Virus record (IMG/VR): IMGVR_UViG_3300030012_001209
Span: 1 to 34,358 of that record
Source: a virus
Direction: 5' to 3' (one strand)
Length of the DNA: 34,358 nucleotides
Shown here one piece after another: positions 6,298-24,445 of this stretch (the stretch's first letter is position 1; each line of letters opens with the position of its first letter). A model generated the notes under the pieces. It saw only the letters and a program-made list of their open reading frames with translations. It did not search any database and was not told the origin of the DNA. Made by a program: the position numbers and the translations under genes.

Positions 6298-8340
6298 TTA
6301 GTTTCCTATTTTGACTGGTCGTTCTTGCACAGTTTCAAGTGCAATCTCCATTTCTCCTTGGTCTACTTTTTGTTTCTTAATTTCAAGTTCTTGTTGTTTG
6401 ATTAAGAAATCAACTTGTGCTTCTCGTTTTTTCAATTCAAGTGCTTGCTGTTTGAGTTTAGTATCAAGTTCAAGCTCGGCAGCTTGTAGTTGTAGCTTGG
6501 TTAATTCTATTTGTGCTTTTTGTGCAGCAACTTTTTCATCCATGGATGGCTCAGCTGGTTGTGGTGGTGGCATCATCTCAGGGTTAGATATAAAAGCATC
6601 TGCATTTTTATATCCTGACTGTGCTATAAACTCACTTACTGCGTTATATAAATTTTGAGGAGTAACCAATGTACCCATTCCACCTTGTTGTACTAAAACA
6701 TTGAGGATATTCATAATGCTTGACATAGTTTGCATTTTGTTTTGTTGGTTTCCACTACCAACACCTACATTGACAATACAGTTTAGCTTCTCTTTCCAAC
6801 GAGATACATCTATCGGAACAAATTTATTATTTAAAAATACTATTTTCTGTCTATCTTCATACCTTTGTACTAACTGGTAGATACATCTGAAGACGTCTTT
6901 GATACCAGTTTCAGCAAATATGCGAGCAATCAGCTCAACTCTTTGCATAGCTGACTCTGTTGCTGCTGATATTGCACCTGCTGTTACATGCGAAGTTAGA
7001 ACATCAGGATTTAATCCTTGCGACATCTTAGATACACCACTTCTTTCTTCTCTTATTTGGTCTAAATACCTAACCATATTGAAAGCATCAGGTGGCATCT
7101 GTGGTGTAGGCAGTGGTGTTACTGCATTTGGACTACGCATACGCACAATCCCACCAGGTCTTGAAGTAAGTAGGTCATCTAACTCTACTTGCCCTGCTAA
7201 TACTGCATATCTTGAATTATTGGTAAGATACATGTTATCAAGTATGTTTCTAACCACTGTTGATTTGATAAGTTGTATGTCTTTGACTGTATCAGCTACC
7301 GACATGCCGTAAAACTTATGTGGTATGGGTAATGGACAGATAGCTGAGAAAGGAATGTAGTCAATCTCAACATTATCCAGTATTGTATTACCACCTTTAG
7401 TAATTTTTCTTAACTCTGCTATACCATCGCCATCAAAATCTATGCGTGTATAACACTCGTCTAGCCAAACCTGTCTATTTGCACCCATTCCCTCATCAGG
7501 TGGCACTGAATCATCGTCATAACTAAACCTTGCAAGCCTTTCTTCGTTCAATTCTGCCTGAGACTGAGAATAACTGGGTAGTGATTCTACTAATGCAGGG
7601 TCAAATCCCTCAATAATTAACTCGCTTACTGTTTTTTTTACCCTATGACAGATAAATTGTGCAGATTCTATGTCTGTTGCTCGTCTTGATATTAAAAATT
7701 CTTCAGGTGGAACAGACATTACCTTAACTTGTCCATGAGTTTTGTTATTCACTACAGTTACATCGTGTGAAACCGACTTAGGTTTTACAAGATTTCCTAA
7801 ATCATCTAGTATTTCTTCGTTTACTACGTTCTCTGTATGCTCAATAACTTCTAAATCATCATTTGCTAATATAGATTGGTACTCTATGTCTGTAAGTTTC
7901 CTGTAACTTTCTTTAACTGGGTCTTTTCTCTGTTCCCAATAATGTTTGATGATGCCAGTCTTGCTTATCAAAGCGTCCTTAAAGGCATCGTAGAGGACCT
8001 TAAAGCCGTTATTTTGGCGATTAAATACATAATTGACATAATCAGTAGCCTGCTTTGCCATTTGCACATCTTCAGGTCCTTCAGGCTCAAACTCCACCAT
8101 ATTGTTGTGCGTGGTAAAGATACGCATAAGCGATGGCATGATATATTCAACTGTATCTCTCACATCAGTAGTTACAATCTCTGACCTGCCATCTATCTCA
8201 TTGCCAAACTTCTCGCCAAGATAATACTTCATAGAGTCTTCTCTTTGACTAGACAGCTCACTGTTCATATGACCTGTTGCGTTTTGTATCTCTGCTTCTA
8301 AGTGTGCAGCTAATTCGCTTTCTGTTTTTATATCTGCCAT
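6298..8340 (-). CDS. Portal protein (head-tail connector), podovirus P22-like
   Basis: The 680-residue size is usual for P22-like portals. The N-terminal part has REDSMKYYLGEKFGNEIDGRS and VRDTVEYIMPSLMRIFTTHN, followed by a YVNYVFNRQNNGFKVLYDAF segment; these are hallmarks of this portal group. The middle holds the stem/clip region (DYIPFSAICPLPIPHKFYGMS, then DTVKDIQLIKS). The last 110 residues are a long Gln/Lys/Glu coiled coil, consistent with a barrel helix. Twelve copies would form the DNA channel to which terminase docks. The gene begins seven bases after terL, as in most tailed phages, and ends 31 bases before the basic-protein cassette. Confidence 0.9.
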   Translation of the reverse strand: MADIKTESELAAHLEAEIQNATGHMNSELSSQREDSMKYYLGEKFGNEIDGRSEIVTTDVRDTVEYIMPSLMRIFTTHNNMVEFEPEGPEDVQMAKQATDYVNYVFNRQNNGFKVLYDAFKDALISKTGIIKHYWEQRKDPVKESYRKLTDIEYQSILANDDLEVIEHTENVVNEEILDDLGNLVKPKSVSHDVTVVNNKTHGQVKVMSVPPEEFLISRRATDIESAQFICHRVKKTVSELIIEGFDPALVESLPSYSQSQAELNEERLARFSYDDDSVPPDEGMGANRQVWLDECYTRIDFDGDGIAELRKITKGGNTILDNVEIDYIPFSAICPLPIPHKFYGMSVADTVKDIQLIKSTVVRNILDNMYLTNNSRYAVLAGQVELDDLLTSRPGGIVRMRSPNAVTPLPTPQMPPDAFNMVRYLDQIREERSGVSKMSQGLNPDVLTSHVTAGAISAATESAMQRVELIARIFAETGIKDVFRCIYQLVQRYEDRQKIVFLNNKFVPIDVSRWKEKLNCIVNVGVGSGNQQNKMQTMSSIMNILNVLVQQGGMGTLVTPQNLYNAVSEFIAQSGYKNADAFISNPEMMPPPQPAEPSMDEKVAAQKAQIELTKLQLQAAELELDTKLKQQALELKKREAQVDFLIKQQELEIKKQKVDQGEMEIALETVQERPVKIGN

Positions 8341-8347
8341 TGTATTC

Positions 8348-9772
8348 CTAAACTATTGCAACATCAGGTCCTAGCCTACCTTTGCTATTCCACTTTGATG
8401 TTTCTGTGGTTGAATGTCTGAGACTCATAACTGCATATCGTGTTGCACTCATAAGGTCGTCTTTTATTTTTACTATCTTTCCGTCTTTGCGATGATACAA
8501 TCTAAACTCCTCAAACCAATCATACATCGTGTTAAATACTCTAAACTTGCCTTGTTCCATTTTGGTAAGCATATCCATAATCCCTGTCTCAACACTTAGG
8601 TTGCCCTTCTTCTCGCCCAGTGCTGGTGGGTTTTCAAAATGAAACGGCAGCATATTGACGTGTGCGTGTCTGTATTGTTCTGCCAAAGTTATACCTGAGC
8701 CTTTGTCATGCTGGTAGCCATCGTGAGGAAAAGCTATTGGAATGTAATGACTACCTTCTCGTTGATTGATATGAGTTGCATGATAATCAGGTGTTTGTTT
8801 TGCCATTTTGTAGCAATCGTAAATGTAAACTATATCTTCATCTCTATCCCAAGCAACCCATACTACTGCTGTTGGGTGGTCGTAACCAAAGTCAAGACCT
8901 GCGATGCGTGAAAAATGTGGTGGTATCACGAAGGGTTCGCAGGTCAAGCTGTCCTCTGAGACAGGAAAAACCAGTCCACTACCAATCATTGGGATACCTT
9001 TAGACCTCATGTCTCTTTCGTGTGGTGGTAGAGCAGAAAGGATTTGTTCTTTCATGCTTTCTGTCAAATGGTCTGCATCCGACCATCCTGCTGTGATAAG
9101 TGCTTGTCCAGGTCGTAAATCGTTTGTAAAGTTCTGTACTACCTCAGTCATGCCTGATTCAGGTGTGAAGGTTAAGTAAACCATACCTGCCTTATCCAAT
9201 GTTCTTGTGATACATTGAGAGTAGATATCTTGGGGTGGTTCTTCATCGAGCCATATCAAGTCGATACTCTCCCCCATAAATTTTTCGCTACCCATTTCAT
9301 AAGCCTTGAAGGCAACCCTTGACCAACCCCCTGTTTTGTGTTTTACAAGGACTGATGAGTGTGCATTGGGAACACCAGGTTTCCTTGTCGTTTCTCCAAT
9401 GAGATGTTTCGGTATCGAACCTTTACCTTTATCTCTAGGGTTATCAGGTTGCCCAAATAATTCTTTTTGACAAATATCTCTTGTGGTCTCGTTGCTTGCA
9501 CCACATACCCAGGCTTTGATTGGCTTATCAAACTTCCTACCTTGCCACCACTCAGGATACTCCCCTGTCAAATGTATCGCCATCTCCATCGCACCCACAT
9601 AGGATTTGCCAACCCTGTTTGCTGCCATCAACAATCTTTGGTTAGCTTCTAGTGAAGTCTGATGAAATCGTTTTTGGAAATCGTAGGGCTTGTAGTAATT
9701 TAATTTGTTTTCTTCTGTGCGTTTATTGAGGGTTTTTTGTAGTTCCTCAATACGTTGTAATTCAATAGACAT
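8348..9772 (-). CDS. terL: Terminase large subunit (packaging ATPase and nuclease)
   Basis: This 474-residue protein has a Walker A of the terminase form ANRVGKS (residues 51-57), a Walker B DLIWLDEE (171-178), and the coupling motif YLTFTPE (about 199-205). The C-terminal RNase H-like nuclease is marked by LDFGYDHPTAVVW (Asp294), a central region near IAFPHDG, and a late acidic KIKDDLMSATRYAVMS motif. It packs DNA through the portal and cuts concatemers. It is the first gene of the minus-strand late block, so its promoter must lie in 9773-10500. The small subunit is not next to it but at 20510-21001. Confidence 0.95.
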   Translation of the reverse strand: MSIELQRIEELQKTLNKRTEENKLNYYKPYDFQKRFHQTSLEANQRLLMAANRVGKSYVGAMEMAIHLTGEYPEWWQGRKFDKPIKAWVCGASNETTRDICQKELFGQPDNPRDKGKGSIPKHLIGETTRKPGVPNAHSSVLVKHKTGGWSRVAFKAYEMGSEKFMGESIDLIWLDEEPPQDIYSQCITRTLDKAGMVYLTFTPESGMTEVVQNFTNDLRPGQALITAGWSDADHLTESMKEQILSALPPHERDMRSKGIPMIGSGLVFPVSEDSLTCEPFVIPPHFSRIAGLDFGYDHPTAVVWVAWDRDEDIVYIYDCYKMAKQTPDYHATHINQREGSHYIPIAFPHDGYQHDKGSGITLAEQYRHAHVNMLPFHFENPPALGEKKGNLSVETGIMDMLTKMEQGKFRVFNTMYDWFEEFRLYHRKDGKIVKIKDDLMSATRYAVMSLRHSTTETSKWNSKGRLGPDVAIV

Positions 9773-11520: not shown

Positions 11521-12435
11521 ATGACTAAGAAAATGAAGGAACGCATTGACGGAATAGTGTCAAGTTTAATTGACACTATGAAGCAACACGGTACAAGCTG
11601 GACAAAGTGCTGGAAAGGTGGTATTAGACCAGTAAATCTAGTAACTAAGTCAAGCTATCGTGGTATCAATGTACTTCTGCTAATGTATGCGAGTCTGAAA
11701 CGAGGTTTCACGTCTCAACACTGGGCAAGCATGAAGCAGTGGAACGAAAAGGGATACATGGTAACTGGCAAATCTGAATCTATAATCTTCTTCAAACAGG
11801 TATCAAAAACCAAAACTGACGAGGTTACAGGCGAGGAAATGCAAGGCGATGTTTACTGGGTACATAGATACTACAATGTATTCAACGGAAGCCAAGCTAT
11901 CAACAAAAGCTATCTGTCATGGATAACCAACACATACAGATACACTGATGGCGATGAGAAGGCTAAGACTTCTAAAGTCGTAGACATAGAAGCCGTAGAC
12001 AAATACATCAACAACACTAAGGCAGACATCAGACATGGTGGAGATAAAGCATTTTATACTCCTACAGGCGATTTCATTGGTATGCCGAACAAGTCATCAT
12101 TCATAGATACTGATGACGCAGACGCAACAGGTAATTATTATGGAACTAAGCTACACGAACTTGCTCACTGGACAGGTCATAAGACTAGGCTTGATAGATT
12201 CGGAAAAGCCCCAGCGTCATTCGGAGATGACAAGTATGCATATGAGGAATTGGTAGCAGAGATATCTTCAACTCTATTAAGTATTGAGTTAGGTGTAGAT
12301 GCAGAGCCAAGGGCAGACCATGCAAAGTATCTGAACAACTGGTTGAAGGTGTTAGAAAATGATAGCAAGGTGTTGATAAGTGCTTCAACAAAAGCAACGC
12401 AGGTACTTGATTACCTGAATGAATTGCAAGAGTAA
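11521..12435 (+). CDS. ardC: ArdC-like antirestriction protein with zincin metallopeptidase domain
   Basis: The 304 residues fit the ArdC family. The N-terminal ssDNA-binding domain (about 1-130) has SWTKCWKGGIRPVN, the SYRGINVLLLM motif, an HWASMKQWNEKGYMV region and a SIIFFK strand. The C-terminal domain (about 150-300) has the zinc motif HELAHWTGH (His212, Glu213, His216, His220) and a later Glu in EELVAEI near residue 243. ArdC proteins from plasmids protect incoming DNA from host restriction; here it is encoded early, as expected. A GAGG ribosome site precedes the ATG. Codons for residues 105-118 are duplicated in the next gene. Confidence 0.9.
   Translation: MTKKMKERIDGIVSSLIDTMKQHGTSWTKCWKGGIRPVNLVTKSSYRGINVLLLMYASLKRGFTSQHWASMKQWNEKGYMVTGKSESIIFFKQVSKTKTDEVTGEEMQGDVYWVHRYYNVFNGSQAINKSYLSWITNTYRYTDGDEKAKTSKVVDIEAVDKYINNTKADIRHGGDKAFYTPTGDFIGMPNKSSFIDTDDADATGNYYGTKLHELAHWTGHKTRLDRFGKAPASFGDDKYAYEELVAEISSTLLSIELGVDAEPRADHAKYLNNWLKVLENDSKVLISASTKATQVLDYLNELQE
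11833..11874 (+). repeat. Donor copy of a 42-nt duplication (inside ardC)
   Basis: This segment, encoding EEMQGDVYWVHRYY within ArdC, matches 12620-12661 at 40 of 42 positions and in the same reading frame. The only differences are G/A and T/A at two codons. Confidence 0.85.
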
Positions 12436-19728: not shown

Positions 19729-19953
19729 ATGAAAATATTGATAGAGAAAGATGTAAAAGATACAGGAAGAACAAGCAAGTATCAGCAATACATTGACACA
19801 GTAACTGATATGGGAATAGGGGATTCTTTTGTTGTCGATGATTTTCAAATCGTAGATGCACTAAGACACTATGCTTGGAGACAGGGTTACAAGGTAACTT
19901 ATAGAACCTTAGACAAAGATAAGTATAGAGTTTGGAAAAGAAAAGATAAATGA
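19729..19953 (+). CDS. Small unknown protein, 74 aa
   Basis: The 74-residue product begins MKILIEKDVKDTGRTSKYQQ and has VTDMGIGDSFVVDDFQIVDA, then LRHYAWRQGYKVTYRTLDKD and a basic end. The pattern G-SF-V-D-....A.R.YA-R-GYK-T-R--DK resembles small phage proteins with a helix packed on a short sheet. Family not identified. AGGAGAG lies 15 bases upstream. The stop overlaps the antiterminator ATG as ATGA, so the two are probably co-translated. Confidence 0.65.
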   Translation: MKILIEKDVKDTGRTSKYQQYIDTVTDMGIGDSFVVDDFQIVDALRHYAWRQGYKVTYRTLDKDKYRVWKRKDK

Positions 19954-20513
19954 AGCTAGAACTTATGTCGATTCTTTTCCCCAAGTCTATCGACATGGAG
20001 GGAATAGGAACGAGCAAGTCTCACGATGCTATAACTGCTTCTGATGTGCAGACTATTCTTTCTTATAAAAAATTAAAAGAAGAAGAAGTAAACTTAATAC
20101 TAGCTAAATATTTTGACGATAATTCTGCAAGAACATGGTTGTTAAAATACATGGAGTCTCGCACACTAGAACAGTCAGAAGTATTTATTAGCGAACAAGC
20201 CGTAAATCCTGGTTTTATATTAACCTTTGAAGAACACTCTAGTTTAGCTATGTGCTTGTGGTTAGAAACTCTTTTACATGCTTGCCCTACTTGTAATGGT
20301 GTTGGCATTATAAAGCTGAGTGGTTATATTACAAATGGTATTATTAAATGCGAGGACTGTGTAGCAGGTGTTTATGTTTGGAGTGATAAAGTAAGACAAC
20401 GCATCTCAGGTCTTAACAAAGACAAATACAAAAAAGCAAAGTCCTTTTATAACCAAATCATAGATGGCATTAACGACATAGAAACAAACGCATTAGAAAA
20501 AATACAAAACTAA
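19950..20513 (+). CDS. Lambda Q-like late antiterminator
   Basis: The 187-residue product aligns by eye with lambda Q: both start M-(K/R)-L-E and have F-x-PKS-x-M, followed by SD-V in similar places. Both then have a zinc finger: here Cys112-PT-Cys115-NGVG and Cys134-ED-Cys137 (Q has C-x2-C-x-GxG and C-x2-C-x-GxG with similar spacing). Q binds promoter-proximal DNA and RNA polymerase so that polymerase ignores late terminators. As in lambda, it is the last early gene. Here, unusually, the late genes are on the opposite strand. The assignment is recognition-based. Confidence 0.75.
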   Translation: MKLELMSILFPKSIDMEGIGTSKSHDAITASDVQTILSYKKLKEEEVNLILAKYFDDNSARTWLLKYMESRTLEQSEVFISEQAVNPGFILTFEEHSSLAMCLWLETLLHACPTCNGVGIIKLSGYITNGIIKCEDCVAGVYVWSDKVRQRISGLNKDKYKKAKSFYNQIIDGINDIETNALEKIQN

Positions 20514-21001
20514 TGTGCTAATGTTTTCTCTTTGTCCTTGGCAGGCTTAGAAGATTCTTCTGCGATAGATTTAGATTCAGACTCGAAGTTAAGTTTAGTC
20601 TTAAATCCAGGAACTTTATTTATAAGCTCATTAAGTTCAGCTATTAACTCATCATCAGTTTTATTCTTTGTGTCATCTACAGCTATATTGATATTCTGAG
20701 AACTATAATTACCTAGTTCTAATAACAATTTTGCTGTATTCATTTTGACAGAATCTTGTTCTGAGTTAATCATCAGGTACTTTAATGTATCAATAGCCAA
20801 GCTAGACGTGGATGTTATTTTGGTTTCGTTAATACTTCTAATTTCTTTTTCGTATTTCTTTCTCAACCAATACCCATGCTGACTAGGATTTTTAGTATAC
20901 CCTGCCTTTTTAGCAGATGCAGTTGCATTTGATGCAGTGCTGCCGTCTGTAAAATAGTCTATGAACTTTTGTTCTTTTTCAATATCGCTTCTTCTTGCCA
21001 T
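20510..21001 (-). CDS. terS: Terminase small subunit-like protein
   Basis: ATG 21001 is chosen over an upstream start because GGAGTAAGC lies immediately before it. The 163 residues begin MARRSDIEKEQKFIDYFTDG and show the small-terminase pattern: a helix-turn-helix (STASNATASAKKAGYT) for DNA recognition, then GYWLRKKYEKEIRSI, a helical middle and a charged tail. It would bind packaging-start DNA and load the large subunit. It lies about 11 kb from terL in window coordinates and at the end of the late minus-strand block. Its stop overlaps the antiterminator's stop by three bases. Confidence 0.65.
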   Translation of the reverse strand: MARRSDIEKEQKFIDYFTDGSTASNATASAKKAGYTKNPSQHGYWLRKKYEKEIRSINETKITSTSSLAIDTLKYLMINSEQDSVKMNTAKLLLELGNYSSQNINIAVDDTKNKTDDELIAELNELINKVPGFKTKLNFESESKSIAEESSKPAKDKEKTLAH

Positions 21002-21003
21002 GC

Positions 21004-21069
21004 TTACTCCAATATATATAGATAACAAAGCGATATAATCGCTGTTGCTACCAGTGCTTCTAGTATCAT
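21004..21069 (-). CDS. 21-aa single-span membrane peptide
   Basis: ATG 21069 overlaps the TGA of the preceding gene as ATGA, and its TAA ends inside the ribosome site of terS. The product MILEALVATAIISLCYLYILE is almost entirely one transmembrane helix. Its fit between two genes, overlapping upstream and ending two bases before the terS start, suggests a real coupled mini-gene. It may be a small lysis or membrane-regulating peptide; that is inference. Confidence 0.5.
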   Translation of the reverse strand: MILEALVATAIISLCYLYILE

Positions 21070-21293
21070 TGTGATAAAGGATTAGACTGTTTTTTGATAA
21101 GCTCGTTTAGGCGTGTTTCAAGCACGGCTATCTCTGCTTTCATAACAGCAATATCTCTCTCCATTGGTTTAATATCAACTGATTTCTTTTGCTCTAAGAC
21201 ATCAACTCTTTCGATAAGCTGCCCTTGAAAAACAAACAAACCAGCTATCGTGATTACAAGACCTATGCCTGTAGCTATAGTTTTAATATCCAC
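21066..21293 (-). CDS. Membrane-anchored coiled-coil protein, 75 aa (holin- or spanin-like topology)
   Basis: It starts at GTG 21293 with an ideal AAGGAGG site six bases upstream. Residues about 4-23 (KTIATGIGLVITIAGLFVFQ) form a transmembrane helix. The rest is a charged coiled coil (ERVDVLEQKKS, then KAEIAVLETRLNELIKK), giving the general plan of an i-spanin or XhlA-like protein. It lies next to the exported protein gene and two other lysis-like small genes. An i-spanin partnered with the lipoprotein at 23025-23153 is plausible, though Rz proteins are usually longer. Confidence 0.6.
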   Translation of the reverse strand: MDIKTIATGIGLVITIAGLFVFQGQLIERVDVLEQKKSVDIKPMERDIAVMKAEIAVLETRLNELIKKQSNPLSQ

Positions 21294-23028
21294 GAATCCT
21301 CCTTAAATGTTCTTCTGCTTTAATTCTTTCTTCTACAGCATCCTCAATTTCTTCATGATGTTTCGTAACATTATCTTGATAGATGTTTTGACTGAAAGCA
21401 TAAATATTTCTAGTGTCAATATAGTTTCTTGTTTCATAATAGTCTCCCCCATCAATCACAGGTTGGTCTTGAAAGATGCCTTGATTGACAGAATTGTATG
21501 TATCTAAAATTTTATCATTTGACATAGCTTTAGCAACAATAAGCGATGTTGCAATAAGTCTTTGGTCTACTCTTTGAATAGTTTGATTGACTCTGCGTTC
21601 AATGTTTTCTACTGAAATCGTTGTATCAACTGTTCCAGGACTTTCACTATCCCTGCTTTCTTCCACCTGAGCATTACTGCTTTCGGTATCTTGCCCTCCT
21701 GTACTAGCGACTTCAGTTCCCTCATCTCCTTGTTCACTTTCCACTGTTTCTGTTTCTCTGTCAGTTTCATTTACTTCTTCAGAAGCGACCTCAGTTTCTC
21801 TTTGATTCGATGAATCATCGTTTGCAACCATGCTTTCGCTTTCAACAGTTTCATTCCCAAGCTGTTCTCCATTTGATGATACTCCTGTGCTGCTCTCTTG
21901 CTCAGACTCTGCAACAACTGATGTTTCGTTTCCTGTTGGTGGAGTTCCATTTCCTTCTCGATTAATTTCTTCTCCGATATCTCCCTCTCCTTGTCCTCCA
22001 ATTCCTTCTTCTGTGCTAGGGATTGGCTCAACTTCTCCCCCAAAGTCGGTGGTTTCGTAGATGGTCTGCCCTGCTTCTGCAAAGGATTCTGTTTCAAACT
22101 CTCCCCCAAAGTCTTGGGTATCGAATTGTTCTTGGACAAATTCTGTTGTTTGGCTTGGTTCGATTCTTTCAACTGCTTCAAAGCCGACTTCTTCGATTTC
22201 GATTTCTGTTGCGACTTCTTCGATTTCCTGCGTATTGTCATACATTATCTCCTGAAATATCTCAACAACACCTGTGTTTATATCATCTATTATGTCAGTT
22301 TCATAAGCCATATCATCTAACATAACGAGGTCAAACATCTGTTGGTCGTCTATTTCAATAACAAATTCTTGTATTTCCTCTATGGGTGCAAACTCTATAG
22401 TTTGTATTTCTTGCTCTACAATATCGTTTACTGTCTCATTGATAAGCGATATTTCTGTTTGCTGTGTCTGTGATAACAGACTGTGTTCTATAACCAGTGT
22501 TGGATTCTTTAAATCAATGGCTCTATGAGATGTAGATTGTGATGCTTCTGAAAAATCAAACCTTGCCTTGATAGTATAATTAGTTTGATTGTTAATGCCC
22601 TGAGTATAGCTATCTGTATAAGTAGCATATCCACCACAGTTCCAACCACTACAACCTGGTATTTCAACATCTCTAATCTGCGTAGTTACTGTACCATCTG
22701 CACCTGTAATCGTTTGAGTCATGCGAATCTCTTGGTCGTATTGATTCCAACCCCACATATCAGCACCCAATGTTGATGTCCAACCACCATTGATTTGACT
22801 CTGATTGAGAGTATCGCCAAGCGATATAGTATTTTCTATGAAATCGCCATGCACAGCAGCGACAATACTGTTGCCATGATTATGACTAGGGTCTGTGCAA
22901 TTCCAACCATTGTGCTGTTGATTGTTGTTAAAAAACTGTTGAGGAAGCAAGTTCCCTGTGGTTTCTGCCATCAGGGAACTCATAGTAATAATATGAAAAA
23001 TAATTATTTGGTATGTAAATTTTATCAT
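21283..23028 (-). CDS. Large exported acidic protein with signal peptide, 581 aa, unknown
   Basis: Residues 1-21 are a signal peptide with hydrophobic core YQIIIFHIITMSSL and likely cleavage after SLMA. Residues 22-190 are a beta-rich domain with NGWNCTDPSHNHGN and GGWTSTLGADMWGWN, Cys at 44, 126 and 131, and RFDFSEASQ. Residues about 190-480 are a disordered, highly acidic Glu/Gln/Ser/Thr/Gly segment. The C-terminus (480-581) is helical and charged, ending EEHLRRIRGY. The start overlaps the lipoprotein stop by four bases. I know no function. It could be a lysis factor, surface protein or exclusion factor; the cluster context supports a membrane or envelope role. Confidence 0.75.
   Translation of the reverse strand: MIKFTYQIIIFHIITMSSLMAETTGNLLPQQFFNNNQQHNGWNCTDPSHNHGNSIVAAVHGDFIENTISLGDTLNQSQINGGWTSTLGADMWGWNQYDQEIRMTQTITGADGTVTTQIRDVEIPGCSGWNCGGYATYTDSYTQGINNQTNYTIKARFDFSEASQSTSHRAIDLKNPTLVIEHSLLSQTQQTEISLINETVNDIVEQEIQTIEFAPIEEIQEFVIEIDDQQMFDLVMLDDMAYETDIIDDINTGVVEIFQEIMYDNTQEIEEVATEIEIEEVGFEAVERIEPSQTTEFVQEQFDTQDFGGEFETESFAEAGQTIYETTDFGGEVEPIPSTEEGIGGQGEGDIGEEINREGNGTPPTGNETSVVAESEQESSTGVSSNGEQLGNETVESESMVANDDSSNQRETEVASEEVNETDRETETVESEQGDEGTEVASTGGQDTESSNAQVEESRDSESPGTVDTTISVENIERRVNQTIQRVDQRLIATSLIVAKAMSNDKILDTYNSVNQGIFQDQPVIDGGDYYETRNYIDTRNIYAFSQNIYQDNVTKHHEEIEDAVEERIKAEEHLRRIRGY
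21771..22241 (-). CDS. Candidate overprinted gene, 156 aa, basic, nested in the exported protein gene
   Basis: In a second frame on the same strand, an ATG at 22241 has AGGAG seven bases upstream, matching this phage's preferred AGGAGATA leader. It opens 156 codons: MTIRRKSKKSQQKSKSKKSA, a long Lys/Gln/Ser region, then a coiled coil (KELEDKEREISEKKLIEKEM) and a basic amphipathic end (WLQTMIHRIKEKLRSLLKK). The host frame is acidic here, so stops are rare in other frames, including opposite-strand ones; the open length alone is therefore weak evidence. The ribosome site is the main support. Confidence 0.4.
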   Translation of the reverse strand: MTIRRKSKKSQQKSKSKKSALKQLKESNQAKQQNLSKNNSIPKTLGESLKQNPLQKQGRPSTKPPTLGEKLSQSLAQKKELEDKEREISEKKLIEKEMELHQQETKHQLLQSLSKRAAQEYHQMENSLGMKLLKAKAWLQTMIHRIKEKLRSLLKK

Positions 23029-23153
23029 CTTTTCTCAGGTACGTCTATTTTAATCTCGTTGTTTCCATATACTTCCATCTCCCCAAGTATTACTCGATGT
23101 GAAGTACAGCTAGTGAGTATGACCATCATGGTTAGTGTGAGTATCTTTTTCAT
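23025..23153 (-). CDS. 42-aa lipoprotein, possible Rz1-like outer-membrane spanin
   Basis: ATG 23153 has AGGAAAG five bases upstream. The product begins MKKILTLTMMVILTSCTSHR: a short Lys start, a hydrophobic helix and the lipobox L-T-S-C (Cys16). The mature part of 27 residues ends NEIKIDVPEKR. The first 44 bases overlap the end of the preceding gene in another frame, and the stop overlaps the next ATG as ATGA. Overlap with an export gene, tiny size and a lipobox recall Rz1. A Pro-rich segment typical of Rz1 is absent, so the name is tentative. Confidence 0.65.
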   Translation of the reverse strand: MKKILTLTMMVILTSCTSHRVILGEMEVYGNNEIKIDVPEKR

Positions 23154-23775
23154 TAATCTTTCCTGATGGCACAGGTTTATTATTCCATGTCATGCTTGGT
23201 TTGGTGGTTTCGTTTCTCAACTCGCCTTTTCTTTTCTCAATCCATCTTGCTTTTGCTTTCTCGCCTATCAATCCATCAATAGGACAGGGTGTTCCTGCGT
23301 CCATCATGGCTTTCCATACGTTTTCATCTTGACACATCAATGCTATTGCTGCGACTTTCATGCCAAGTTTTGCCATAACTGCTACAGATTTTCGCCTTTC
23401 ACACTCCTCATCTACCATATATGAACCAAATGAGCCTGAAAAGCCAATAACGGTTATTCCTGCTGCAAGTGGTATAACACAGCTATCTTGCCCATAAACA
23501 CTCATACTGGGTGCATTAGAGGGGTTTACTGCTGTCTTAGCATTGGTCGTGTTGTTAGTCTCATTATTAGTGGTAGAGTTACTAGAAGAACCTGATTGAT
23601 AAGTCGTGCTTGATTCGTAACCACCTGTAATCGCTGTGTTACTACCAGCATTATTGCTTTGGGTGTTGGTGGTAGAGCCTGAGCTGGTTACATCAGATAC
23701 AGCACTCTCAATACCTAACAATATTACCATAATAATTAATATGTATATTGCTTGTTTAACTCTTAACACTTCCAT
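23110..23775 (-). CDS. Exported protein with signal peptide and His-rich tail, 221 aa
   Basis: Residues about 8-25 (QAIYILIIMVILLGIESA) are a signal or anchor helix. Residues 28-80 are a low-complexity Ser/Thr/Asn/Gly stretch, then a compact helical domain with Cys in DSCVIP, EECERR, ALMCQDE and GTPCP, probably disulfide-bonded in the periplasm. The tail ends KDTHTNHDGHTH, with five His, and is encoded where the lipoprotein gene overlaps. It starts inside the previous gene (13-base overlap). I have the impression of similar proteins in other marine phages but know no function. Confidence 0.7.
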   Translation of the reverse strand: MEVLRVKQAIYILIIMVILLGIESAVSDVTSSGSTTNTQSNNAGSNTAITGGYESSTTYQSGSSSNSTTNNETNNTTNAKTAVNPSNAPSMSVYGQDSCVIPLAAGITVIGFSGSFGSYMVDEECERRKSVAVMAKLGMKVAAIALMCQDENVWKAMMDAGTPCPIDGLIGEKAKARWIEKRKGELRNETTKPSMTWNNKPVPSGKINEKDTHTNHDGHTH

Positions 23776-24014
23776 TTTCTTAGTGATTTATTTATTCTGC
23801 TATTTGGGTCGTTTGCTGTTTTTGCTGAAGTCAATTTTTTTTTCATTCCCTTCATTCTCGCACAAAAACTTTTACGTCTTGCTGCTGCCTTTGAGCCTTT
23901 AGGTGCTTTGCCTGTTACAGGTGCTTTAAGATTAGAGCCTTGTTTTCTTTTGAAGTATGCTCTGCCTGCTGCGTTAAGTCCACCACTTGGGTTTTGATAT
24001 TTTTTAGCTACCAT
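23763..24014 (-). CDS. Small basic protein, DUF6321-like
   Basis: The 83 residues start MVAKKYQNPSGGLNAAGRAY and continue FKRKQGSNLKAPVTGK, the NP-GGLNAAGR--F-R--GSNLK-PV signature of the DUF6321 group as I remember it, seen in marine phages. The rest is Lys/Arg-rich with RKSFCARMKGMKKK and a CysTrp-type end (RKWKC). It is probably nucleic-acid binding. Its start overlaps the holin-like gene stop by one base (TAATG), and its end overlaps the next by 13 bases. Function unknown. Confidence 0.75.
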   Translation of the reverse strand: MVAKKYQNPSGGLNAAGRAYFKRKQGSNLKAPVTGKAPKGSKAAARRKSFCARMKGMKKKLTSAKTANDPNSRINKSLRKWKC

Positions 24015-24445
24015 TATTTTCTAGTCAAAGACCCTCCAAAATAAAGTCCGATAATCGAGAATATAGTGTGTGATTGTAAGTTTGTAATATAAATGGTATT
24101 GCCTTCTTCAAAGTATGATGTCTCGTAGGTTGAGCCAAATATCCACCAACCACTATCTGCTTCCGTTACGATTTGATATGCAATATTTACATCAGAGAAA
24201 ATTGGAGCAACGATTGGTACTACAATAATAGAGAATACGCACATCAATGCTATCCATCTTCTTGTATGTTTTGTGTGTGGGTCAGAAACTTCTCTAGCTT
24301 TATCGGTTTGTTTTGCTGCAAAACCTGCCCTAGCCATCAACATCTTTTGTCGTTCTGCTTCGGCTTGTCCTTTCTGTGCCATGATAGACATAATCCCACC
24401 GAGTACAGTAGAAGCTAACATTGACAATAATTCCATCGGTATCAT
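24014..24445 (-). CDS. Three-helix membrane protein, holin-like
   Basis: The 143 residues have hydrophobic segments at about 4-22 (MELLSMLASTVLGGIMSIM), 64-84 (WIALMCVFSIIVVPIVAPIF) and 127-140 (TIFSIIGLYFGGSL). A charged loop and a DPHTKHTRRW segment precede TM2, similar to 3-TM holins of the gene-transfer-agent type. It starts by ATGA overlap with the large virion protein gene. A holin role fits its position at the junction of virion genes and the exported-protein cluster, but it could be a structural membrane protein. Confidence 0.65.
   Translation of the reverse strand: MIPMELLSMLASTVLGGIMSIMAQKGQAEAERQKMLMARAGFAAKQTDKAREVSDPHTKHTRRWIALMCVFSIIVVPIVAPIFSDVNIAYQIVTEADSGWWIFGSTYETSYFEEGNTIYITNLQSHTIFSIIGLYFGGSLTRK

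Follow-up and report, generated by a model that had tools for sequence, protein, structure and literature searches.

A probable lysis-associated envelope cassette of marine phages and two overprinted genes within its largest gene

The virus record IMGVR_UViG_3300030012_001209 of IMG/VR (G000; 36,861 bases), whose bases 1–34358 constitute the window analyzed here, encodes on its minus strand, between positions 21,004 and 24,445, a compact cluster of small exported and membrane proteins. In our reading this region is probably an envelope cassette that is mobile, late and tied to lysis, found in marine phages of Alphaproteobacteria, and its largest gene, EXP581 (21283–23028; a 581-residue exported acidic protein with 26 Lys or Arg against 116 Asp or Glu), carries two overprinted genes. 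Both lie in the +1 frame of EXP581: NES1 (21771–22241; 156 residues, net charge +22) has its own ATG and Shine-Dalgarno sequence, and NES2 (21609–21770; 53 residues, net charge +9) starts right after the NES1 stop (TAA-ATG). We consider it practically certain, on the comparison between phages, that NES1 and NES2 are two protein-coding genes, and, as judged from their substitution patterns, each is under tighter constraint than the EXP frame that it overlaps. An earlier note, made from the window sequence alone, had listed a "possible nested gene" at 21771–22241, which the comparison shows to be real; the second one was not listed there.

The nested frame was put to the test because almost every EXP homologue has, at the same place, a +1 frame that stays open for at least 90 codons. 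Third codon positions are those that change most in ordinary genes. Over the NES1 overlap, the third positions of EXP change least (0.101 mismatches per codon) and its first positions, which the nested frame reads as third ones, change most (0.200). Mismatches at EXP codon position 1 outnumber those at position 3 in 20 of 20 disjoint pairs, with the flanks reversed in 19 of the 20 (Fisher p 4e-44). As some of these pairs are near-duplicates, the set was thinned at 95% identity to 43 representatives, giving 15 pairs, one sequence with N being dropped; the flip persists in 15/15 pairs, and the ratio of nonsynonymous to synonymous substitutions (dN/dS) of the nested frame is below that of EXP in 15/15, with a median of 0.23 in the nested reading against 1.13 in the EXP reading of the overlap, and of 0.18 in the N-terminal flank of EXP. 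The ordinary codon-position pattern is seen in the controls, namely the cassette genes CYS (63/63 pairs) and HOL (38/38) and the linker of EXP genes without NES (15/16). Moreover, the ATG of the nested frame is present in 56/56 homologues, together with an SQQ motif in 54 of them, and a Shine-Dalgarno sequence accompanies the nested ATG in 52/54 cases vs. 209/1660 for the other ATGs of the same genes.

A scan along the EXP gene shows that the flip begins at the NES1 start and continues for about 60 codons beyond the NES1 stop, which led to NES2. This second gene is usually 53 residues long, starts right after or a few codons from the NES1 stop, and forms a separate open reading frame (ORF) in 39/56 homologues. 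The flip is found there in 16/19 pairs, with one against and two ties (Fisher p 5.5e-16), and the mean identity over the region is 0.649 in the nested frame vs. 0.523 in the EXP frame (31 sequences). In the loci L013, L020 and L074 the NES1 product weakly matches the NES2 profile (E 0.0026–0.025), as if both genes were fused in these sequences.

The 211 EXP residues over the overlap comprise 60 acidic (Asp or Glu) and only 5 basic ones (Lys or Arg). No signal peptide or lipobox is found in the NES1 and NES2 sequences, and the two products of the window are without any Cys. NES1 is usually ~80–170 residues long, with an amphipathic C-terminal segment (best 18-residue hydrophobic moment 0.62); the survey of NES1 length and charge includes L068 at 19 residues, its start wrongly chosen, and L042, L068 and L074 (with N) were left out of the NES1 profile. 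A separate scan with SQQKSK as its single pattern gave 224 hits, 146 of them unconfirmed, and 78 confirmed NES1 loci, all 78 nested in an EXP ORF in phase +1. No standalone NES was recovered from 50,697 phage records (tblastn, E 1, with the NES2 of the window and one NES1, from L098), and none outside EXP among the loci examined. In PHROGs, NES1 matches nothing save one family at E 0.62, and NES2 gives weak matches only (phrog_34227, E 0.011); a solved-structure sequence search with NES1 yielded nothing useful. In the EXP genes of S28C10, HTVC023P, Mosig and HTVC202P no NES was found. Since all NES1 loci are nested in EXP and these other EXP genes are devoid of NES, the nested genes were most likely born within EXP, in a single branch, and probably by overprinting of a linker for which almost any acidic sequence will do.

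We give hardly any credence to the alternative that NES1 and NES2 are not genes, the nested frames being open only because the linker is poor in codons that give stops in +1, or because of RNA structure. It can call on the composition of the linker, whose Glu-rich codons give a Lys-rich reading in +1, and on a synonymous-shuffle test of the window sequence alone, in which the open frame reaches p 0.0165–0.027 and is thus only marginal. The case for the NES genes rests on the comparison between phages, where the flip in 20/20 pairs, the dN/dS values, the conserved start with its Shine-Dalgarno sequence and the clean controls all contradict a fortuitously open frame.

The gene that hosts this pair was modeled with AlphaFold2 (41 sequences), which gives a confident domain at residues ~22–185, a low-confidence stretch at 208–471 and a helical C-terminus. 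The fold of residues 22–183 matches sugar-recognizing jelly rolls, i.e., Fbs1 (Z 14.2 over 157 residues, root-mean-square deviation 3.0) and CBM16 (Z 11.8), from which EXP differs in sequence, identity being low (10–13%). In the model, the ordered part of EXP is a jelly roll of the sugar-binding type and residues 208–471 a disordered acidic linker. Because of the match to sugar-recognizing proteins, the predicted fold reads as that of a binder, not of a wall hydrolase; sugar binding itself is not given by the fold alone. In a viral structure library EXP matches many tail or uncharacterized proteins, and solved-structure sequence searches with its profile gave nothing useful. Two versions of the N-terminal domain occur on a common C-terminus, that of the window and one with the signature NLITNGNFETG..GDVQVLNDCC (HTVC202P, HTVC033P, S28C10), which looks like domain swapping.

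All the ORFs named in the earlier note are present on the minus strand, and most of them overlap by a few bases. Besides EXP581 they comprise HOL143 (24014–24445; 143 residues, a holin-like small membrane protein), a basic protein of the DUF6321 family (PF19846; 23763–24014; 83 residues with 24 Lys or Arg vs. 1 Asp or Glu, Pfam E 1.7e-24), CYS221 (23110–23775; 221 residues with an N-terminal signal or anchor, phrog_20531), LIPO42 (23025–23153; a small lipoprotein of 42 residues with the lipobox LTSC), TM75 (21066–21293; 75 residues, with an N-terminal transmembrane (TM) segment and a charged helical tail) and a membrane peptide of 21 residues (21004–21069). In a set of 112 loci, some redundant and many cut or truncated, homologues were found for HOL143 in 84, DUF6321 in 77, CYS in 101, LIPO in 67, EXP in 89, TM75 in 71 and the 21-residue peptide in 10, and by this sequence comparison the cassette ORFs are conserved far beyond chance. 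The order CYS-EXP-TM75, hereafter the triad, is kept in 57/57 testable close loci and in 42/46 testable loci of a wider set that shares some contigs with the former; the remaining four contain CYS and TM75 with EXP not recognized, a TM75-like protein being present in 46/46. These counts leave out loci with short flanks (32/78 and 37/102) and eight without CYS.

Two phages, G003 and G005, carry the cassette though their other genes hardly match those of the window (apart from the cassette, a single match in G003 and two in G005), and on the basis of these sequences the cassette is a mobile module traveling between unrelated phage backbones; in G003, HOL143 has moved to the far end of the cassette. 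The triad, or at least CYS, also occurs in Mosig (a Pelagibacter myophage), HTVC023P, HTVC202P, HTVC033P, Baldr and HTVC115P. In the Roseobacter phages CRP-810 and CRP-207, CYS is retained together with the TM protein ending in Asn-Pro-Leu (NPL), and a different protein replaces EXP. With CYS patterns, 84,980 bacterial and archaeal genomes yielded no more than 7 confirmed loci, each in a metagenome-assembled genome, and the cassette is therefore a phage trait; plasmids yielded one partial CYS match. At one end of the cassette, HOL143 overlaps by 4 bases the gene of a probable ejection protein of 1353 residues, and the opposite end runs into the small terminase gene. In the unrelated cassette phage G005, two adjoining membrane proteins lie just upstream of HOL143 (L205:16121–16852 and L206:312–1058), with histidine boxes that we take to be those of fatty-acid desaturases. 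Proteins of 342–359 residues are inserted between TM75 and the small terminase in some relatives (e.g., L008:12390–13418 and L037:3806–4885) and contain what are presumably phosphoesterase-like motifs.

As for the smaller exported proteins, CYS221 has four invariant cysteines (99, 125, 148 and 164) and the tail HTNHDGHTH. Its stretch rich in Asn, Ser, Thr and Gly (residues ~30–75) is strongly conserved, with for instance T47, I49, Y53 and G62 invariant in 58 sequences, and such conservation indicates a role beyond that of a spacer. Sequence searches of solved structures with the CYS profile gave nothing useful. In LIPO42 the lipobox Cys16 is invariant (alignment A5), and an outer-membrane lipoprotein signal is predicted. 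The C-terminal Asn-Pro-Leu of TM75-like proteins is invariant as well (20/20, alignment A3). A TM protein of 58–61 residues with a similar start replaces the 21-residue peptide in some relatives, and the latter may, from this resemblance, be a shortened form of it.

The earlier note saw no wall-hydrolase motif in the window, and profile searches agree: no peptidoglycan-hydrolase match was obtained when most window ORFs were compared with Pfam and/or PHROGs by hmmscan, nor in six-frame searches with eight Pfam families over the whole 36,861-base record (M15_3, Phage_lysozyme, Amidase_2 and SLT in 14 records; CHAP, M15_4, M23 and GH19 in 4 records). A GH19 candidate from a first look at this genome was discarded, there being no match at E 10 with the control phage MW202675 positive; GH19 matched none of 14 control genomes. 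The part of the record beyond the window, to which the note had pointed as a possible place for a standard endolysin, was checked as well, and bases 34359–36861 (~2.5 kb) hold tail genes only. The assembly break (record bases 1–3/36861) falls inside one tail-fiber gene, the two halves of which correspond to residues 1–442 and 470–677 of the 678-residue protein of the relative G001. As the halves span nearly all of that protein, the genome is, by this alignment, complete in effect, and with only ~27 residues missing there is little room for a hidden endolysin. An endolysin of an unrecognized type among the uncharacterized proteins is possible; the lysozyme domain of Skadi lies within an internal protein of the virion, and the 1353-residue protein of the window has no match. 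An exported hydrolase was likewise sought and rejected, no Pfam or PHROG hydrolase being found for EXP, CYS, LIPO or TM75. The proposal of the note that one of the exported proteins disrupts the wall is not supported for EXP, residues 22–183 of which are modeled as a jelly roll and not as a known hydrolase, and the structure model of CYS (mean predicted local distance difference test score 55.7) is too weak for a fold search.

On the other hand, the same genes adjoin lysis genes recognized by their domains in other phages, in agreement with the lysis-associated or envelope module that the note had suggested. Near the triad or CYS are found GTA_holin_3TM in Mosig (E 1.6e-5), Peptidase_M15_3 in HTVC023P (E 1.3e-14) and in L167 and L179, Phage_lysozyme in MW202481 (E 2.9e-34) and in L168, L172 and L181, Amidase_2 in HTVC033P (E 9.1e-20), and, in MW202675, a protein that is GH19-like and bears a peptidoglycan-binding domain. 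The lysis regions of HTVC023P and HTVC033P resemble the cassette in their CYS-EXP-TM/NPL order and have, in the immediate vicinity, a small membrane protein as well as an M15 peptidase or Amidase_2; they differ from it in having no LIPO and no NES, and in the presence of a real endolysin, none having been found in the genome of the window. Because a true endolysin or holin lies alongside in several phages, a lysis-associated envelope role is the one favored, tentatively, by these gene neighborhoods.

HOL143 resembles GTA_holin_3TM (PF11351) in its position, the latter adjoining CYS in Mosig, L163 and L190 and lying close to it in MW202481, and in its layout of a short hydrophobic N-terminus, a charged helix, a membrane part and a Y/W-F-G C-terminus; it differs in having no Pfam match, PF11351 included. 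Solved-structure sequence searches with the HOL profile gave nothing useful. Homologues of HOL143 are often labeled "peptidase M15", as in the Skadi phages, HTVC203P and HTVC024P. Skadi4_20 (L108:6004–6435, OP131301) is one such HOL143-like membrane protein, with no Pfam match and with neither an M15 domain nor GTA_holin_3TM. The complete Skadi-4 record is without a match to the M15_3 profile (PF08291), which does detect the positive control HTVC023P gp49, and the lysozyme domain of Skadi-4 sits in Skadi4_10, among internal virion proteins. The paper on the Skadi phages assigns lysis, in the portion consulted, to a peptidase M15 (PMC10504331), and the above comparison suggests that the protein so credited is a mislabeled membrane protein.

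In the mechanism that we propose, infection would end with permeabilization of the inner membrane by HOL143. TM75 would be anchored in this membrane, its tail reaching into the periplasm. CYS and EXP would have been exported beforehand and would act at the wall or outer membrane, EXP binding a surface glycan, and LIPO42 would sit in the outer membrane. NES1 and NES2 would be made in the cytoplasm from the EXP message and, being basic and without signal peptide, would stay there until the opening of the inner membrane lets them into the envelope. The basic amphipathic C-terminus of NES1 would suit a membrane-active protein of the disruptin kind, a role that for NES1 and NES2 is a guess by analogy: the disruptin of PhiKT is described, in the section of the source consulted, as a short helical peptide, amphipathic and similar to LL-37 in its action (PMC12819732). 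NES1, itself cationic and with an amphipathic segment, differs in its usual length and in being overprinted. The arrangement also recalls the embedded spanins of the lambda Rz/Rz1 type, in which a gene lies wholly inside that of an exported protein in a shifted frame. NES1 starts at ~0.45 of EXP, and embedded o-spanins mostly start at 0.4–0.5 of the length of the host gene, according to the part consulted of PMC6139136. NES1 and NES2 differ from Rz1 in lacking a lipobox or signal peptide, in being basic and in forming a tandem of two, and EXP is not an i-spanin; the lysis role of the EXP cassette, on which the parallel leans, is one that we infer. As GAA (Glu), when shifted by one base, gives a lysine codon, charge complementarity would be built into the overlap, and one may imagine NES1 and NES2 as a new class of envelope-breaking proteins overprinted in the gene of their own polyanionic partner, bound by charge to the EXP linker, so that a membrane-active cationic protein would do no harm and stay matched in amount to its partner until the membrane is opened by the holin; we regard this as a long shot.

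Several observations count against the lysis-associated cassette as we read it. Lysis genes often lie near late structural genes anyway, so that neighborhood carries little weight. A recognizable lysis gene was present in only some of the distant loci, within the DNA examined, and in HTVC202P the M15 peptidase is encoded at 29.1 kb, far from the triad at 7.3–9.7 kb. LIPO, NES1 and NES2 were not found in the distant isolates examined, and of 56 EXP homologues 17 are without a separate NES2. HOL143, which the earlier note described as having three TM segments, shows one strong segment (65–83) in a simple hydropathy scan, and profile comparison with GTA_holin_3TM (hhalign, probability 4.3) gives no link. 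The triad could instead be a surface-modification or superinfection-exclusion module, in which EXP would bind a host glycan and, with CYS and TM75, alter or shield the cell surface before lysis, proximity to lysis genes merely reflecting placement in the late operon. The sugar-binding type of fold of EXP would fit, as would its alternative N-terminal versions on a conserved C-terminus, expected of a recognition domain under diversifying pressure, and CYS weakly matches the superinfection-exclusion family phrog_4980 (E 0.0098); that match covers a low-complexity stretch, however, and holin, amidase, lysozyme or M15 genes recur nearby in unrelated phages. We consider this module unlikely, though it deserves to be taken seriously.

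The lysis core might alternatively be a two-component spanin in separated arrangement, with LIPO42 as o-spanin, TM75 as i-spanin and the rest accessory. The invariant lipobox Cys of LIPO42, the N-terminal TM segment and charged helical tail of TM75, and their presence in the same cassette agree with the usual search rule for spanins, a small lipoprotein paired with a type II membrane protein, as given in the consulted part of PMC6139136. We hold this arrangement to be quite doubtful: TM75 occurs without LIPO42 in many loci and in all distant triads examined, mature LIPO42 has only ~27 residues and the tail of TM75 ~50, and the best spanin profile matches to LIPO42 (E 0.058–0.067) cover only its first 20–22 residues. 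Finally, the overlap of HOL143 with the probable ejection protein and the junction with the small terminase at the other end could mean that the cassette encodes virion or genome-entry proteins, i.e., minor structural proteins that look exported and lie beside the ejection proteins. Signal peptides and a lipobox are unusual in virion proteins of tailed phages, and the triad is common to unrelated virions (podo- and myophage), which makes this explanation highly improbable.

The genome around the lysis-associated cassette is that of a tailed phage. The minus strand encodes the terminase large subunit (8348–9772), the portal (6298–8340) and the scaffold, capsid and tail proteins, and the plus strand the early genes, e.g., ERF and YqaJ recombinase. 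Relatives by the HOL143 protein are pelagiphages and roseophages, the closest named phage being the uncultured MedDCM-OCT-S28-C10 (87% in HOL143), and the host, by inference, is probably a SAR11-like bacterium. A gene at 11521–12435 encodes an ArdC-like protein with ArdcN and MPTase-PolyVal zincin domains (Pfam E 2e-20 and 2e-41), possibly an anti-restriction protein. Adjoining the probable small terminase gene (20510–20998), a gene at 19950–20513 encodes a 187-residue protein with a zinc-finger-like motif of Cys pairs and a weak match to Q-like antiterminators (phrog_127, E 0.0024). In the literature on pelagiphage overlapping genes, spanins and endolysin/holin, in which subscription journals were little covered, no publication was evidently devoted to the cassette, and the consulted part of Zhang et al. 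(PMC12753301) gives no expression data on its genes. Movement of curli genes between pelagiphage families is described in the portion consulted of Wittmers et al. (PMC9599517); no link of that transfer to the cassette proteins was found.

Pelagiphages belong to the most abundant viruses of the ocean, and to our knowledge the way in which they escape from SAR11 cells is largely unstudied; a compact cassette common to unrelated marine phages would be a candidate for this role. NES1 and NES2 moreover constitute an unusually clear overprinted pair in a tailed phage, which gene callers that forbid overlaps will miss. Since the hidden genes appear more constrained than the visible one, the "disordered acidic linker" of EXP may be regarded as largely the shadow of two unannotated proteins.

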